NCBI GenBank assembly: GCA_013204185.1
Contig: JABMOI010000268.1
Location: 1 to 33,752, forward strand
DNA from: a bacterium
Lineage (GTDB): Bacteria > Bacteroidota > Rhodothermia > Rhodothermales > UBA10348
Reading direction: 5' to 3'
Length of the DNA: 33,752 nucleotides
A program made the position numbers and the translations under genes. Under the pieces are notes generated by a model. It made no database searches. It had not been told where the DNA came from and saw only the letters and a program-made list of their open reading frames with translations. The number at the start of each line of letters is the position of its first letter. Position 1 is the first letter of the stretch. This document shows positions 10,316 to 33,657 of this stretch, piece after piece.

Positions 10316-10351
10316 CCGTTCGATTGGTTTAAATCAAAACAGGCTTGACAA

Positions 10352-10388
10352 AAAGAAGGTCGGGGCGCGAAGCGCCCCGACCTTCTTT
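10352..10388. terminator. Bidirectional intrinsic terminator
   Basis: A perfect 17-bp stem (10352-10368 paired with 10372-10388) with loop GAA. The GC-rich core is flanked by AAAGAA on the left and TTCTTT on the right, so U-rich ends are produced on both strands. It lies between the convergent barrel gene (+) and hydrolase gene (-), as expected for a shared terminator. Confidence 0.92.
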
Positions 10389-10413
10389 CATATACAAAAC
10401 CCGTGGATCTCTT

Positions 10414-21922: not shown

Positions 21923-22959
21923 TGGTCTTTCGAAAGTGGGCAGCCCTCTTCGCGATGTGTTTCTTCGTTCACGTGTGCTTTCATGCGCAGGTGTCTATGG
22001 CCCAATACGCTGGTTCTTTTTCAAGGATTGGGTTTGGAGCACGGGGTATATCACTTGGGAATGGCTTGGCTGGGGACACGAGAAGTGGCACGAGTCCGTA
22101 CTACAATCCAGCATTCGCTCCGCTTGTAGCGGGACAGAACATTGAAGCCTCTGTTGCTTCGCTTAGCTTCGATAGGTCCCTTCAGTTTTTGCAATTGAGT
22201 GCGCCTCTTCAAACAAAAGCTGGATTTGCCCTTGGACTTATTCACGCCTCCGTTTCGGACATCGACGGACGGGACAACAGCGGTTTTCATACTAAGAACC
22301 TGTCCGTCGACGAGTACGCTGGGTTTTTAGCTTTTGGACTCAAGTTTTCAAATCGGATAAGCGCCGGTGTGGGCCTCCAGATGTTTAGAACCGATCTGTT
22401 TGATGGGTTGACCCCAGCAAATAGCATTGGCCTGGATTTTGGTTTCGCTGCTCAGGTGGCCGACAACTGGAGCCTAGGACTCGTCGCCGACGACCTATTA
22501 GCCCGCTATTCTTGGGATTCTTCAGATTTAGGGGGAAGCGGAAGAACGATTACCGATTCGTTTCCACGGCGCATCCGATTGGGGGTAAGTACCTATCAAC
22601 TAAAGGGCACACTTTCTTTCCATGGAGAAGTTGAATCGCGGTTTAGTTCCGTTCGAACTGAAACAAGAACAACCCGGATCTTTGGAGATTCTCCTGCTGA
22701 AACGAGCGAGGAAAAGACGCTTGTAGACCAAGAATTCAGGCTTAGAGCAGGAACGGAGTATATTCCTCTTCAAGGTTTTGCCGTTCGGGTTGGCTTAGAG
22801 CAGCTAGGTAGCGAGGCACTGGATTCTGTTCGGCCGTCTTTTGGGTTCAAGGGTGAGCAAAAGATGGGGGAATTGACGATTCGAGCCGAATACGGCCTTG
22901 CATTAGAGGCTGAATCAGGCGGAAAGATGCATCTTTTTAGTATAACACTCTTCTTATGA
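21919..22959 (+). CDS. PorV/PorQ-family outer-membrane barrel protein
   Basis: 346 residues. Signal peptide MMVFRKWAALFAMCFFVHVCF ends near SMA-QYAG. The mature start SFSRIGFGARGISLGNGLAGD...GTSPYYNPA is the family hallmark (a FadL-like barrel with the LG.GAR.L.LG.A and YYNPA/WNPA motifs). The rest alternates amphipathic strands and loops and ends in FSITLFL, an aromatic/aliphatic barrel C terminus. PorV and relatives collect T9SS cargo after translocation. Its start overlaps the propeller gene stop as ATGA, and its own stop overlaps the next gene the same way, suggesting a dedicated partner of this cargo. That role is inference. Confidence 0.85.
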   Translation: MMVFRKWAALFAMCFFVHVCFHAQVSMAQYAGSFSRIGFGARGISLGNGLAGDTRSGTSPYYNPAFAPLVAGQNIEASVASLSFDRSLQFLQLSAPLQTKAGFALGLIHASVSDIDGRDNSGFHTKNLSVDEYAGFLAFGLKFSNRISAGVGLQMFRTDLFDGLTPANSIGLDFGFAAQVADNWSLGLVADDLLARYSWDSSDLGGSGRTITDSFPRRIRLGVSTYQLKGTLSFHGEVESRFSSVRTETRTTRIFGDSPAETSEEKTLVDQEFRLRAGTEYIPLQGFAVRVGLEQLGSEALDSVRPSFGFKGEQKMGELTIRAEYGLALEAESGGKMHLFSITLFL

Positions 22960-23927
22960 CCACGACCGCATTAGTCCCAAGACGGCCTTTTTCTATTCAG
23001 CATATTCTTCGCCTAACGGCTTATGCATGCATTGTTATAGTTATAGGGGCACCCCTTTCGTCAAGTGCTCAAGATTCTGGCTTGTCGTTTCTACGATTAG
23101 GGCCAGACGCAAGGGCCCTGGCCCTAGGCGATGCGGGGGTTGCTTCAGCTTCTGGCGCTCGTGCCACGTATTGGAATCCTGCAGGCTTAGCTAGTTCTAT
23201 GTCGAAGCAAGTCTCTTTTTCGCACCACATCTGGATAGCGGATGTTCGAACCTTGGCGCTTCAAAGCTCGTTTCCACTTGGCGAGAAAACCGGAGTTGGA
23301 TTTTTTGTTGTGGCTACCGGAGCTGGGGATCTTGAAGCTCGAACGAATCCGGGCGCCTCAGAAGGCTTTTTTAATGCTCAATTTGTGAGCACGGGCGTTT
23401 CTGTTGGGCGCTCATTTGGCTTTGTCCGCGCGGGTGCGACTGTGAAATACCTTTCGGAGCGCATTTTTACCAGCTCTGCCAACGGATATGCCTTCGATTT
23501 TGGACTCCAATCTTCATTCATGGATGAGAGCTTTGTGGCAGGAGTCACGTATTCCAATCTTGGAAAAATGGACGCCCTGAATGTTGTTGCAACCAAGCTG
23601 CCAAAAATTGCTCGAGCGGGCGTGGAGTTTTACCCATTTCGCATTTTGACAGAGACGGACGGCGAGCAACTGCTTAGCACTGCTTTATCCATAGAATGGT
23701 CTAGAAATTATGTCACAGAGGAAGCCCAGTTCCATATTGGCCTTTCCGGCGAAGTGCTCGAAACGGTTACAGCCAGAGTTGGGTACCTTTCGAATGACGC
23801 ACTTAGGTCAATTTCCGCTGGTTTGGGACTAGATATAGCCAATCTTTTAGTCGACTATGCCATCATTCCGTTTGAAGACGGCTTTGGTGGGCCCGCTCAT
23901 ATTATGACGGTAGGCTATACTTGGTAG
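22956..23927 (+). CDS. PorV/PorQ-family outer-membrane barrel protein (second copy)
   Basis: 323 residues. Hydrophobic signal (about 18-38) ends near SSA-QDSG. The mature start GLSFLRLGPDARALALGDAGVASASGARATYWNPAGLA is the clearest PorV/PorQ signature in the window. Barrel-like strands follow throughout and the protein ends HIMTVGYTW. It is the last gene of the coupled cassette, with an ATGA overlap to the preceding relative. The two copies share plan but have diverged strongly. The 15-bp tandem repeat begins 28 bases after its stop and may help end transcription. Confidence 0.88.
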   Translation: MTTTALVPRRPFSIQHILRLTAYACIVIVIGAPLSSSAQDSGLSFLRLGPDARALALGDAGVASASGARATYWNPAGLASSMSKQVSFSHHIWIADVRTLALQSSFPLGEKTGVGFFVVATGAGDLEARTNPGASEGFFNAQFVSTGVSVGRSFGFVRAGATVKYLSERIFTSSANGYAFDFGLQSSFMDESFVAGVTYSNLGKMDALNVVATKLPKIARAGVEFYPFRILTETDGEQLLSTALSIEWSRNYVTEEAQFHIGLSGEVLETVTARVGYLSNDALRSISAGLGLDIANLLVDYAIIPFEDGFGGPAHIMTVGYTW

Positions 23928-23955
23928 CTCACGGCCGTCCTTAATTCGACGTGTC

Positions 23956-24059
23956 TTTCCGCGCGCCTAGTTCCGCGTGTCTAGATTCCGCGCGCCTAGT
24001 TTCCGCGCGCCTAGTTTCCGCGCGCCTAGTTTCCGCGCGCCTAGTTTCCGCGCGCCTAG
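23956..24059. repeat. Tandem 15-bp repeat, about seven units
   Basis: Consensus TTTCCGCGCGCCTAG. Units: 23956-23970 (perfect), 23971-23984 (14 bp, degenerate, GTGTCTAG variant), 23985-23999 (one change), then four perfect units 24000-24059. A more decayed copy may sit at 23943-23955. Each unit contains two self-complementary blocks, GCGCGC and CTAG, so neighbouring units can pair with each other. It lies between two converging genes; the TAG of the CPBP gene on the minus strand falls in the last unit. No spacers, so it is not a CRISPR array. Confidence 0.95.
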
Positions 24060-24844
24060 TTCCACAGTGCTTGAAAGGCCTTCTGGAGCGCCTCGAAACC
24101 TATACCGGTAGAGCCTGATCGGGCTCTGAGCGAGCACCAAAAGTCCAGAATTAGCATTTGGGCTGCATGAATTGGGACGGCAATCCAAAAGCTTCGCGAG
24201 CGCCAAACAAGTGCTCCAAGCGCAACGCCGCCTATTATCGACAGGAAAGCCTCGGCAAAGGGCTTATTGAAATGCATGATAGCGAAGGGCATAGCTTGAA
24301 TTACGATGGCCATTGGGCCAAACGATCGTGCGGTTCCAAAGAGCACAAATCCGCGCCATAAATATTCCCAGCCTATCCAGTAGAGCAGGAAGAAGGCCTC
24401 GTACACCAGAAAGATATTCCAGTTAATGGCCGCTTCGGAATAGTGTGGATATTTGACTTGAAAAGCGGAAGAATCGGACAAAAACCAGGTTCCTACAATA
24501 ACCAAGGGTAAGTACAGTCCCGTGATTTTCAGTGCGAATGAATAGTCGCCGAGGCCGAGGCCCATTTCGCTCCAGGAAAACTTAAAGCCCCACTTGAGCA
24601 GGATTACAGGTACGCAAAACCCAAGCACACCCTGCATTCCAAACCACCAAATCCAAGAAGCAAGGCCGCTGCGATCTAATTCTAGGAGGGGAGCGATGTC
24701 GGACCTGAAAAAACTCCGATCACCTAATTTCATCTGTAGAATAACGATGAAAGCCGCGATCAATAGAATTGAAGCAGCCTGTACGTCGAGGGCTTTCAAA
24801 CCTCGGCTTAATCTGTTCCATTCGTCTTGAATAGACAATCGCAT
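24056..24844 (-). CDS. CPBP-family intramembrane protease-like protein
   Basis: 262 residues with about seven hydrophobic helices. The CPBP (Abi/Rce1-like) core lies at 145-235: WEYLWRGFVLF (159-169) corresponds to the EExxxR motif, FAIMH (187-191) to FxxxH, and HAAQM (226-230) to the third histidine motif. The first glutamate of EExxxR is Trp159 here; aromatic residues at that place are known in a CPBP subgroup, but activity is uncertain. Family roles include CAAX-type proteolysis and bacteriocin self-immunity; none can be assigned. It starts 18 bases after lipA and is probably co-transcribed. Its stop codon lies inside the tandem repeat, so the repeat may have replaced the original end of the gene. 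Confidence 0.82.
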   Translation of the reverse strand: MRLSIQDEWNRLSRGLKALDVQAASILLIAAFIVILQMKLGDRSFFRSDIAPLLELDRSGLASWIWWFGMQGVLGFCVPVILLKWGFKFSWSEMGLGLGDYSFALKITGLYLPLVIVGTWFLSDSSAFQVKYPHYSEAAINWNIFLVYEAFFLLYWIGWEYLWRGFVLFGTARSFGPMAIVIQAMPFAIMHFNKPFAEAFLSIIGGVALGALVWRSRSFWIAVPIHAAQMLILDFWCSLRARSGSTGIGFEALQKAFQALWN

Positions 24845-24862
24845 AAACCGGACTAATTATGT

Positions 24863-25840
24863 CTAAACGTGTCGTTCAGCGTGATAAGAGCTCCGGACTA
24901 ATGGGCCGCTTTCAACGTGTTCAATTCCTTTGGCTTCCCCAACTTCCTTGTACCACTGGAATTTATCTGGGTGGATAAACTCAATTACTGGGAGGTGCAT
25001 GCGGGTAGGCTGCAGGTATTGGCCAATGGTCATCACATTGAGTCCGATTTTAACAAAATCGTCCATTAGAGTCAAAACCTCGTCTTCCTGTTCGCCTAGG
25101 CCCACCATGATTCCACTTTTGGTTCTCAAGCCCTGCTGTTTAGATCGGTCTAGGACATCGAGGGAGCGCTGGTAAATGGCTTGTGGTCGTACTTGCTTGT
25201 ACAACCTAGGCACGGTTTCCACATTGTGGTTCATGACTTCAGGGCGGGCGTCGATCACGGTTTGCAATGCATCCCAAGCGCCGCGGAAATCGGGGATTAA
25301 GACCTCGATTGTGACGCCTTCAATTTCCTCGCGGAGTCTCTTAATGGTTTCAGCGAATATCGGAGCGCCTCCATCCTTACGCTCATCTCGGTTCACGCTG
25401 GTAATAACGGCGTGCTTTACACCCATTGTTTTTGCAGCTTCCGCAACGCGGTTGGGTTCATCCCAATCGAGTCCGGGGTCCGGCCGGCCGGTCATAACCG
25501 CGCAAAATCCACAGCTTCTAGTGCATACATTCCCTAGAATCATGAATGTCGCTGTACCAGCCGTCCAACATTCACCCATATTAGGGCAACGTGCGCTCTG
25601 GCAGACGGTGTGGAGACCATTGGAGTCAATTGTATTGACTAGCTTCTTGAACGTTTCGCCGTAAGGGAGCTTTACCCGGAGCCAGTCAGGCCTATTTCCG
25701 CGTGTATTTTCAACGGGTGTAGGTCCTATTACCGGCAACTCAACCATGCCATCTCCACCAGCCGGTTCGGCAGGTTTTGCAGTCCGCAGCTTGAGATCAC
25801 CTGGACGGTATCCTTTATTTCTTTCTTTTTGATCTCCCAT
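24863..25840 (-). CDS. lipA: Lipoyl synthase
   Basis: 325 residues from ATG 25840; an upstream TTG (25894) would add 18 unsupported residues. LipA is a radical SAM enzyme that inserts two sulfurs into octanoyl groups on lipoyl-dependent enzymes. The auxiliary cluster cysteines are C80, C85 and C91 in [14 protein letters not shown], the radical-SAM CX3CX2C is C106, C110, C113 in CTRSCGFC, and the C-terminal RSSYHAE holds the serine ligand of the auxiliary cluster. The N-terminal 45 residues are a variable, Gly/Pro-rich extension. lipB is not in the window. Confidence 0.96.
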
Positions 25841-26034
25841 AACTAATTTCGGCCAAATGAACCATTTTGAAGCGTTTACCGAGGATGAAAACAAACATCG
25901 GCTACTTCTTTAAGATCCCCTGAATGCGGCAAACACCTGATGAAGTTTCCGTCTGAAACGCTATCTTGAGATAGCCGTTCTAGGTTGAAAGTGAATATAA
26001 TTCAACCCTCATTTGTAAGAAAAACATCACGTAT

Positions 26035-27432: not shown

Positions 27433-27473
27433 GTTCAGGTCAAGGTTGACGTTGAGAGAGTCTAGTTCGCAAA

Positions 27474-27513
27474 AAAAGAGCGGGGGTGGCCAAATGGCCA
27501 CCCCCGCTCTTTT
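27474..27513. terminator. Bidirectional intrinsic terminator
   Basis: Perfect 18-bp stem (27474-27491 with 27496-27513), loop AAAT. The GC-rich middle (GAGCGGGGGTGGCC) is bordered by AAAA on the left and TTTT on the right, so both strands give a hairpin with a U-rich tail. It sits between converging lat (+) and the secreted LolA-like gene (-). Confidence 0.94.
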
Positions 27514-27581
27514 GCATTTCTACGAAATAGGAGGAAGATTCGTGTTAGCCCTTGGGCCTTTACATAAGTCTTCCAACGACC

Positions 27582-31404: not shown

Positions 31405-33657
31405 TTGTTGAAAAAGATTCTTTTCCTTTTGCTCGTTGGTTGCGCTTTTGTGGCCCGCCCTTCACTGGCTCAAAACACCTCTTCAATTAGTGGATTTGTA
31501 CGAGATGTAGAGTCTGGTGAGACCCTCCTTTTAGCCAACATTCGCATCCAGGATACGAGCTTAGGCGCTGCTTCCAACACGTCCGGGTATTACGCATTAA
31601 CCGGTCTATCTGCCGGCCGTTACGTTCTCTTAGTTTCGTATATCGGATATATAACCAAGGAGATTGATATTACTCTTGGGCAAGACCAACAAATCCGGTT
31701 GGATATTGAACTGGACCCACAGGGATTTGAAGTTGGCGAAGTCGTGATTACGGCAGAAGAGGACTCGGAAGAAGAGCAGCGGCAATTGGGAGCGATAAAA
31801 ATGACAACCGCAACCATCAGGAAGCTCCCAACCATTCTTGAACCTGACGTTTTCCGGTCCCTGCAATTGCTTCCAGGTGTGAAGGCTGCGTCTGATTTTT
31901 CTAGCGGACTCTACATTCGAGGGGAGAGTCCGGATCAAACGTTGATTCTCTTGGATCGTACCACTGTATATAACCCCTCTCATTTCTTTGGCGTGTTTTC
32001 AACGTTTAATCCGGACGCAATCAAGGATATTAGGCTGTACAAAGGAGCCTATCCATCTTCCTATGGCGGAAGAATAGGATCCGTCGTGGACATCTATAAC
32101 AAGGATGGCAATCGGAAAGAAACAGAAGGGACCTTTACGCTTGGACTGCTGGCATCGCGGGCCATGGTTGAAGGACCGCATAAGTGGGGTTCTTGGATGT
32201 TGGCTGTTCGCCGCTCTACGGTCGAGCCCGTTTTGGCTGCCGCTCGAAGTAGCGGTTCTGGGAGCATCCCTGAGAAGTTCTTCTTTGTGGACACGAACGG
32301 GAAAATCAATTTTGACCTATCTGATGACGATCGACTCTCTTTTTCTTTTTATACAGGAAAAGATGTTGTGGTTGTCCCCATTGTATCGGACGTCGATGTA
32401 CAGCTCCGCTATGGCAACGAGACCATCTCGGCCAACTGGACGCACCTTTTTTCTGATAGACTGTTTTCAAATTTTACCTTTACCAGGTCCCACTACTTCA
32501 GCAAGCCGTCATTCGAATTCGCGTCGACGTTTTCATCCCAGGATAATCAAGTACGAGACTACTCAGTTAAGAGTGACATCGAGTTTATACCAGATTCTCG
32601 TCACACGCTAAAAGCAGGGTTTTGGGGTGGTCAGCTTCGATTTGATTTGACAAATACGTTTGATCGCACAGAGGTATTCTCTCTCGTAACCCGTTCGATT
32701 TATGGAAACGGGTTTGCAGAATATATCTATCGACCTACGGAGCTTTGGACTATTACTTCGGGAGCTCGAGCCTCGTATTTCGAAAACGGCGGGTTCTTTC
32801 GTGTTGAGCCGCGCCTTTCGTTCGAGCGGCAGCTTTCAGAACGATTATTCGCTCAACTCGGACTCGGGCGCTACAATCAGTTCTTGACGCTTGTTTCAAA
32901 CGAGGCCTTTTCAGGACTCGACGTGTGGCTTACATCTGCTAGTGGCGTTCCTCCTGCATACGGAGATCAGTATGTAACCGGGCTCAAATACAGAACGCCT
33001 AACGGCTTCCGAATCGAATGGGAAGGGTACTACCGTACGATGAGGGACCTGTTTTCGCTGAACCCTTTTCTACCGGATATAGCTGGCCTCGCGTATGAAG
33101 ACATGTTCCATTTTGGAGATGGATACGCGTGGGGATCAGAAATATTTGTTGAAGGCCATCTTGGTCCTGTCTCCGGGTTTGCAGGATACACGTATTCGAT
33201 TACGCGTCGACGTTTTCCTGCGATCAATGAAAGAACCTACTATTCGCCAAAGTATGACCGAACGCACGACCTAAACCTGACGGCGTCATATAATCTAAGC
33301 AGGTCGTGGCAGCTTACAGCCGTATTTAACTATGCAACGGGCCAAGCATATACCGAGCCAGCTTCCCAATATCGACTGACTCATTCACCGTTTCAGGTCG
33401 ACGATACAAACGTGCTTATCAGTCCTTTTAACGGGTCGCGCTTGCCTGCTTACCATCGTTTAGATATTGGCGCGACGAAAACGGGTACCATTTTCGGAGC
33501 GGCCTTTGAACTCCAACTTCAAGTTGTGAATGCCTATAACCGCAAGAATATCTGGTTTCCATTTTTCGAGTTTAAGGATGATGGTAGTGTGAGTCGCGAA
33601 GACGTAAAACAGATTCCGTTCCCTATCCCAAATATTGCATTTACGCTTAACTTTTAG
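31405..33657 (+). CDS. TonB-dependent outer-membrane receptor with carboxypeptidase-like regulatory domain
   Basis: 750 residues. It starts at one of two adjacent TTG codons (31405 or 31408; the second gives MKKILFLLLVG); no in-frame ATG lies nearby. The signal ends SLA-QNTS. Residues about 26-105 are a carboxypeptidase-regulatory-like domain (ISGFVRDVESGETLLLANI, GYYALTGLSAGRYVL). The plug covers about 130-240 (FRSLQLLPGVKAASDFSSG, YIRGESPDQTLILLD, IKDIRLYKGAYPSSYGGR). A 22-strand-type barrel follows and ends NIAFTLNF with the typical final aromatic. The TonB system would drive import of an unknown ligand. A lipoprotein gene starts 11 bases later, the usual receptor plus lipoprotein pairing in this phylum. 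Confidence 0.93.
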   Translation: MLKKILFLLLVGCAFVARPSLAQNTSSISGFVRDVESGETLLLANIRIQDTSLGAASNTSGYYALTGLSAGRYVLLVSYIGYITKEIDITLGQDQQIRLDIELDPQGFEVGEVVITAEEDSEEEQRQLGAIKMTTATIRKLPTILEPDVFRSLQLLPGVKAASDFSSGLYIRGESPDQTLILLDRTTVYNPSHFFGVFSTFNPDAIKDIRLYKGAYPSSYGGRIGSVVDIYNKDGNRKETEGTFTLGLLASRAMVEGPHKWGSWMLAVRRSTVEPVLAAARSSGSGSIPEKFFFVDTNGKINFDLSDDDRLSFSFYTGKDVVVVPIVSDVDVQLRYGNETISANWTHLFSDRLFSNFTFTRSHYFSKPSFEFASTFSSQDNQVRDYSVKSDIEFIPDSRHTLKAGFWGGQLRFDLTNTFDRTEVFSLVTRSIYGNGFAEYIYRPTELWTITSGARASYFENGGFFRVEPRLSFERQLSERLFAQLGLGRYNQFLTLVSNEAFSGLDVWLTSASGVPPAYGDQYVTGLKYRTPNGFRIEWEGYYRTMRDLFSLNPFLPDIAGLAYEDMFHFGDGYAWGSEIFVEGHLGPVSGFAGYTYSITRRRFPAINERTYYSPKYDRTHDLNLTASYNLSRSWQLTAVFNYATGQAYTEPASQYRLTHSPFQVDDTNVLISPFNGSRLPAYHRLDIGATKTGTIFGAAFELQLQVVNAYNRKNIWFPFFEFKDDGSVSREDVKQIPFPIPNIAFTLNF

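Follow-up and report, generated by a model that had tools for sequence, protein, structure and literature searches.

A tandem array of a 15-bp unit lies between two convergent genes, a CPBP-family gene and a PorV-like gene, in the window, the whole stretch of 33,752 nucleotides that we analyzed. We concluded, with a probability of roughly 0.8, that the array is a locus-specific bacterial minisatellite that is neutral or nearly so. Most probably it is a common tandem repeat that expanded recently and is tolerated where genes end, rather than a novel kind of switch or terminator. The features at the locus are as follows.

22956..23927, plus strand: PorV-like outer-membrane protein gene, 323 aa (ORF; Pfam PF19572, E 9e-6)
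23940..23955, no strand: probable older decayed unit on the PorV-like side (putative, from alignment to u6)
23956..24061, no strand: 15-bp tandem array with consensus TTTCCGCGCGCCTAG (TRF, sequence and genome pattern search)
23971..23984, no strand: u6, a decayed 14-bp unit, TTCCGCGTGTCTAG, with 2 mismatches to the 14-mer core (sequence)
24056..24070, no strand: probable older decayed unit over the CPBP coding end (putative, from alignment to u6)
24056..24844, minus strand: CPBP-family gene (CAAX prenyl endopeptidase Rce1-like), 262 aa (ORF; Pfam PF02517, E 2e-9)
24863..25894, minus strand: lipoyl synthase gene (lipA), a conserved neighbor upstream of CPBP (ORF/domain search; synteny)

TRF called the array at 23956-24061 with a period of 15, 7.1 copies, 92% matches and a score of 184. 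Read from the sequence, it is made of seven units of about 15 bp (23956-24059), which were counted starting at the CPBP side. Five of them are perfect 15-mers, one at 23956-23970 and four within 24000-24059; the unit at 23985-23999 has one substitution, and u6 is the decayed unit. Across 100 first-order-resampled windows, TRF scores peaked at 56, which confirmed that the array in the original prediction is real. It is not a chance product, and head-to-tail repetition of a ~10-100 bp unit well above chance is what characterizes a minisatellite/VNTR. The GCGCGC and CTAG blocks inside the unit were both verified as palindromes.

Decay of the array had been predicted at the left edge. Decayed units were found there, but flank alignments indicated that the right edge has decayed as well. 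Beyond the array, the footprint continues for ~16 bp toward the PorV-like gene (23940-23955) and for 11 bp toward CPBP (24060-24070), the latter within the CPBP coding end, where the unit at 24056-24070 codes A-L-W-N-stop. When the flanks were aligned with u6, 3 of 3099 other 15-mers that end in CTAG in a genome sample reached the score of the CPBP end, GCACTGTGGAACTAG, and 0 of 20,000 random 16-mers reached that of the PorV-side flank, GACACGTCGAATTAAG; u6 was picked as the comparison unit for both flanks after looking, and the alignments with the central unit were weaker (scores reached by 38/3099 for the CPBP end and 568/20,000 for the PorV side). These alignments suggest that an older layer of units may persist at both edges and that a younger layer would have expanded in the middle. 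The predicted recent tandem expansion was supported by the TRF units together with the decayed edges.

The stop codon of the PorV-like gene, whose match to PF19572 reached 25.8 bits and is under the cut-off of 27, lies 28 bp ahead of the array, and comparison of the junctions indicated that the array has no effect on the C-terminus of the protein. The CPBP stop codon, as was foreseen, is supplied by the last CTAG of the array, in which the minus-strand ORF at 24056-24844 terminates. The CPBP protein exceeds four of its five same-genus orthologues by two residues and matches the fifth in length. The 15-bp unit corresponds to five codons. In the CPBP frame the array reads ALWN-stop, then ARGN-stop four times, then ARGI-stop, and the PorV-like frame past its own stop meets six TAGs within the array. 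Each in-register unit has an in-frame TAG for both genes, thus growth or shrinkage of the array should spare both proteins.

Each of the five same-genus genomes, and the majority of the family loci that we examined, had the arrangement of lipA-CPBP and the PorV-like gene. The stop-to-stop gap is 128 bp in the present genome; in those five it was -4, -4, -4, 0 and 6 bp, and the stop codons at the junction overlap by 4 bp in three of them (G001-G003). Among the 22 relatives with a measurable gap it was at most 74 bp (one of 23, L030, was dropped because its ORF trace overran the real stop, and six further loci had no PorV-like neighbor). In the loci of 29 relatives, TRF detected nothing at this junction that compares with the array. 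The same-genus gaps of -4 to 6 bp indicate that the array was gained in this lineage, at a junction with almost no gap.

Small repeats were seen beside the CPBP stop in two relatives, a 10-mer repeated 2.7 times (L034) and a 7-mer repeated 3.4 times (L050). The former, in another genus of the family, lies over the CPBP stop at 2261-2287 in the CPBP-strand orientation, and is possibly an independent small array at the same junction. In the window itself, another convergent pair at 1471-1474 uses one CTAG for both stops (a 4-bp overlap in simple ORF calls), presumably the ancestral kind of junction.

From these comparisons the history of the locus can be sketched. In the ancestor, the PorV-like and CPBP genes would have stood face to face with their stops overlapping or touching. 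A short piece of the junction, with the CPBP TAG inside CTAG, would have been tandemly duplicated to give older CACGCGGAACTAG-type units, whose decayed copies now stand at both edges. Later, a variant that reads GCGCGCGGAAACTAG on the CPBP strand would have multiplied in the middle through slippage or unequal recombination. Growth may have been tolerated because the site lies between two 3' ends, without promoters, and because in-register units carry a TAG for both genes; the tolerance of the array can be explained without any function. The order of the duplications, the slippage mechanism and the neutrality are what we infer here, and slippage is read from one assembly.

The array had been suggested to do the job of the hairpin terminators at other convergent junctions. 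As a bidirectional terminator or roadblock, it would act through neighboring units that pair via GCGCGC (and CTAG) in either transcript; polymerase or exonucleases would be halted and the convergent genes kept apart. The units are able to pair; the predicted RNA energy is -48.6 kcal/mol for one strand and -53.6 kcal/mol for the other. Compared with dinucleotide shuffles, the RNA folds had z scores of -1.81 (10/200 as stable) and -1.20 (24/200), and the DNA fold had a z score of -2.76 (0/200 as stable), the last in favor of this reading. Dinucleotide shuffles, however, destroy the repetition too, so we compared arrays of shuffled units, and these were equally stable as RNA in 40% (plus strand) and 37% (minus strand) of trials. 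Palindrome cover was as high as in the unit in 4.4% of shuffled units; self-complementarity is only marginal for this base composition. The 23 array units found in the genus (below) are barely palindromic beyond expectation (96 bases covered vs 83 expected).

An intrinsic terminator has a T run directly after its hairpin; no such run was found in 23925-24075, where the longest T run is 3 on either strand and the longest A run is 2. A terminator scan gave nothing at the array. This silence counts for little because the same scan missed obvious hairpins at 10316-10413 and 27433-27581. The same-genus gaps of -4 to 6 bp leave no space for a terminator, and thus a terminator at the CPBP/PorV-like junction would not be ancestral. 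We rejected the hairpin terminator as the leading idea on the strength of the shuffled units, the short T runs and the orthologues without a gap, and we regard a terminator or roadblock role as improbable. The earlier interpretation held for the expansion and for the stop supplied by the array, and the gain at a nearly gapless junction is in line with it, but the terminator-like job was not supported.

The other five convergent junctions of the window, with genes taken from simple longest-ORF calls, agreed in part with the claim that such pairs use normal hairpin terminators. Two of them show an obvious hairpin followed by T's in the sequence (10316-10413 and 27433-27581), a point in favor of a terminator at the array as well, but the other three, with gaps of -4, 7 and -27 bp, are too short to hold a hairpin. 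The two hairpins are strong and nearly symmetric with flanking A's and T's, and they are likely bidirectional terminators. A weak 18-bp tandem repeat of 2.3 copies (TRF score 49) was also seen at 32796-32837 of the window.

We searched for the unit elsewhere. The 14-mer core with at most 2 mismatches gave seven matches in the array (six exact, one with 2 mismatches) and 14 matches in the rest of this genome, all with 2 mismatches, against 21 for a reversed-pattern control; no further unit copy above chance level was found in this genome by this core search. A pattern of two units with up to 3 mismatches matched one of 60 genomes, namely this one, and none of the 59 other genomes of the order. 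The exact pattern was not found in viral contigs, and Rfam gave 0 matches at the gathering score over the whole window. The unit is locus-specific in this genome and against the 59 others, as expected of a minisatellite/VNTR. The original prediction had itself held that a unit unique to this assembly would speak against a function, and since only this genome matched, the case for a function of the array was weakened.

This distribution bears on two further alternatives. Iteron-like binding sites for a DNA-binding protein or nucleoid factor would fit the regular 15-bp spacing with palindromic blocks. Such a role is very unlikely for a unit that was present at one locus of the genome and in none of the 59 order-level relatives, and that sits between two gene 3' ends and not at a promoter or origin. 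In addition, a period of 15 bp is not a multiple of the helical repeat, which places consecutive units on different faces of the helix. Insertion of a mobile or dispersed repeat of the REP/BIME or MIRU-like kind would match the insertion-like gain at a gapless junction, but these repeats have copies at many genome loci, and copies of this unit were seen at the array locus only, with none elsewhere in the genome, in the 59 relatives or, for the exact pattern, in viral contigs; the 37 loci described in the next paragraph all have spacers other than TTTCC. We consider an inserted repeat slightly less probable still. An assembly artifact, in the array or in its copy number, is equally improbable: the window is one contig of a 271-contig assembly and arrays break contigs in the same-genus genome G003, but the decayed units are distinguishable, the flanks are unique, the length is below about 110 bp, and the array edges grade into the CPBP coding end.

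Two candidate repeat families were tried and rejected. A widespread GCGCGCCTAG family was represented by 37 loci in named genomes that matched two spaced copies; these loci belong to unrelated phyla and have varied spacers, none of them TTTCC. By ORF context, 16 of 38 matches were in coding sequence and 22 of 38 outside it; the latter included 7 at convergent junctions and 8 with the stop of a neighboring gene in the outer CTAG. Spaced GCGCCTAG pairs occurred in 1 of 296 genomes of the phylum (this one), against 7 of 296 for the reversed control. The other candidate was a CTAG-sharing repeat family in the genus. When we searched for three spaced CTAGs, many arrays with differing units came up, with matches in five of six genomes, but the reversed control exceeded this pattern in five of six (30, 40, 32, 16 and 30 vs 13, 2, 0, 3 and 9) and fell below it in G003 alone (14 vs 16). 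In a sample of 23 intergenic arrays that was not picked for CTAG, two had CTAG in the unit, and about one was expected from CTAG density. The reversed-pattern control and this sample led us to reject the family.

The latter sample covered 1,269,952 bp of four genomes of the genus, not chosen for arrays apart from the window itself. With the period set to 9-30 and minima of 2.5 copies and a score of 50, it contained 23 intergenic arrays, whose consensus units differ by eye. We tested the 22 with both neighbors. For fourteen of them a gene 3' end was no more than 25 bp away, where the null had a mean of 3.63 (sd 1.74) and 0 of 2000 draws reached 14; when the present array was left out, the count was 13/21. 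The corresponding number for gene 5' ends was 5/22, with 4.26 under the null. Arrays at divergent junctions were depleted (1/22 vs 7.06 under the null; 1 of 2000 draws as low). A preference for convergent junctions was not evident, with 6/22 arrays vs 3.45 expected (p 0.12). The 3' bias may be overstated, because simple ORF calls place starts far upstream and arrays near 5' ends may thus hide inside genes; we also retained arrays of which up to half overlapped a gene, while the null sites were drawn from intergenic sequence alone. In 200,000 bp from two further genera of the family there were 0 intergenic arrays, compared with 23 in the genus sample, which is only suggestive of an abundance specific to the genus.

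Arrays were also seen at contig ends. In G003, identical array units end the contig pairs C302/C307 and C141/C317 (L142 1-88 and L139 9860-9914; L143 1-94 and L140 4492-4578), and contigs that share end units may be neighbors. Arrays thus break assemblies in the genus and are probably undercounted. In G001, an 18-bp array of 6.8 copies with two CTAGs per unit occupies a contig end (L147 1-122), 1 bp off the 3' end of a gene.

The tendency toward 3' ends raises the tentative idea, which we hold to be less probable than its negation, that minisatellites of this genus are preferentially born on, or selectively kept at, stop codons, and at convergent stop-stop junctions above all. Duplication that copies a stop would be harmless because every unit has its own in-frame stop, and gene 3' ends could therefore act as nurseries for new arrays. 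If this is true, the present array would be a clear, newly born example, with the 4-bp overlap kept in sister species. We recognized no publication on stop-codon-seeded arrays in literature searches. If complete genomes show the 3'-end bias too, the places where new bacterial minisatellites survive would follow a simple rule. The array alone is an ordinary minisatellite, and its value is that of a dated example: sister species keep a nearly gapless junction, so the birth of a stop-codon array can be reconstructed.

REP and BIME elements are dispersed families, intergenic and palindrome-bearing. The present array is likewise intergenic and palindrome-bearing, but its unit occurs at one locus only; the excerpt of PMC2884548 names these palindromic units. 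The array is closer to bacterial minisatellites/VNTRs of the class with non-palindromic units, with which it shares short head-to-tail units, a locus-specific sequence, an intergenic position, a homogeneous center and decayed edges. Unlike them, it sits on the stop codon of a gene, and it is known from one genome. PMC2174442 describes 4-bp overlaps, at CTAG, CTAA, TTAG or TTAA, as frequent among convergent genes. The G001-G003 orthologues have such an overlap, and the array retains CTAG, but the overlap is replaced by 128 bp here.

The closest published parallel that we found, as given in Table 2 and the accompanying excerpt of PMC2734929, is the rnc-fpg1 repeat of Mycobacterium tuberculosis (ETR-F/VNTR3239). 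It measures 279-358 bp in the M. tuberculosis complex, and the same junction has only a few bp in other mycobacteria. In both cases, lineage-specific repeats fill a junction that is short in related species. The rnc-fpg1 repeat differs in its codirectional stop-to-start junction and in its units, which are of greater length and complexity, and the same paper reports that it correlates with downstream gene expression. At the present array both neighbors end, and thus no downstream start can be affected.
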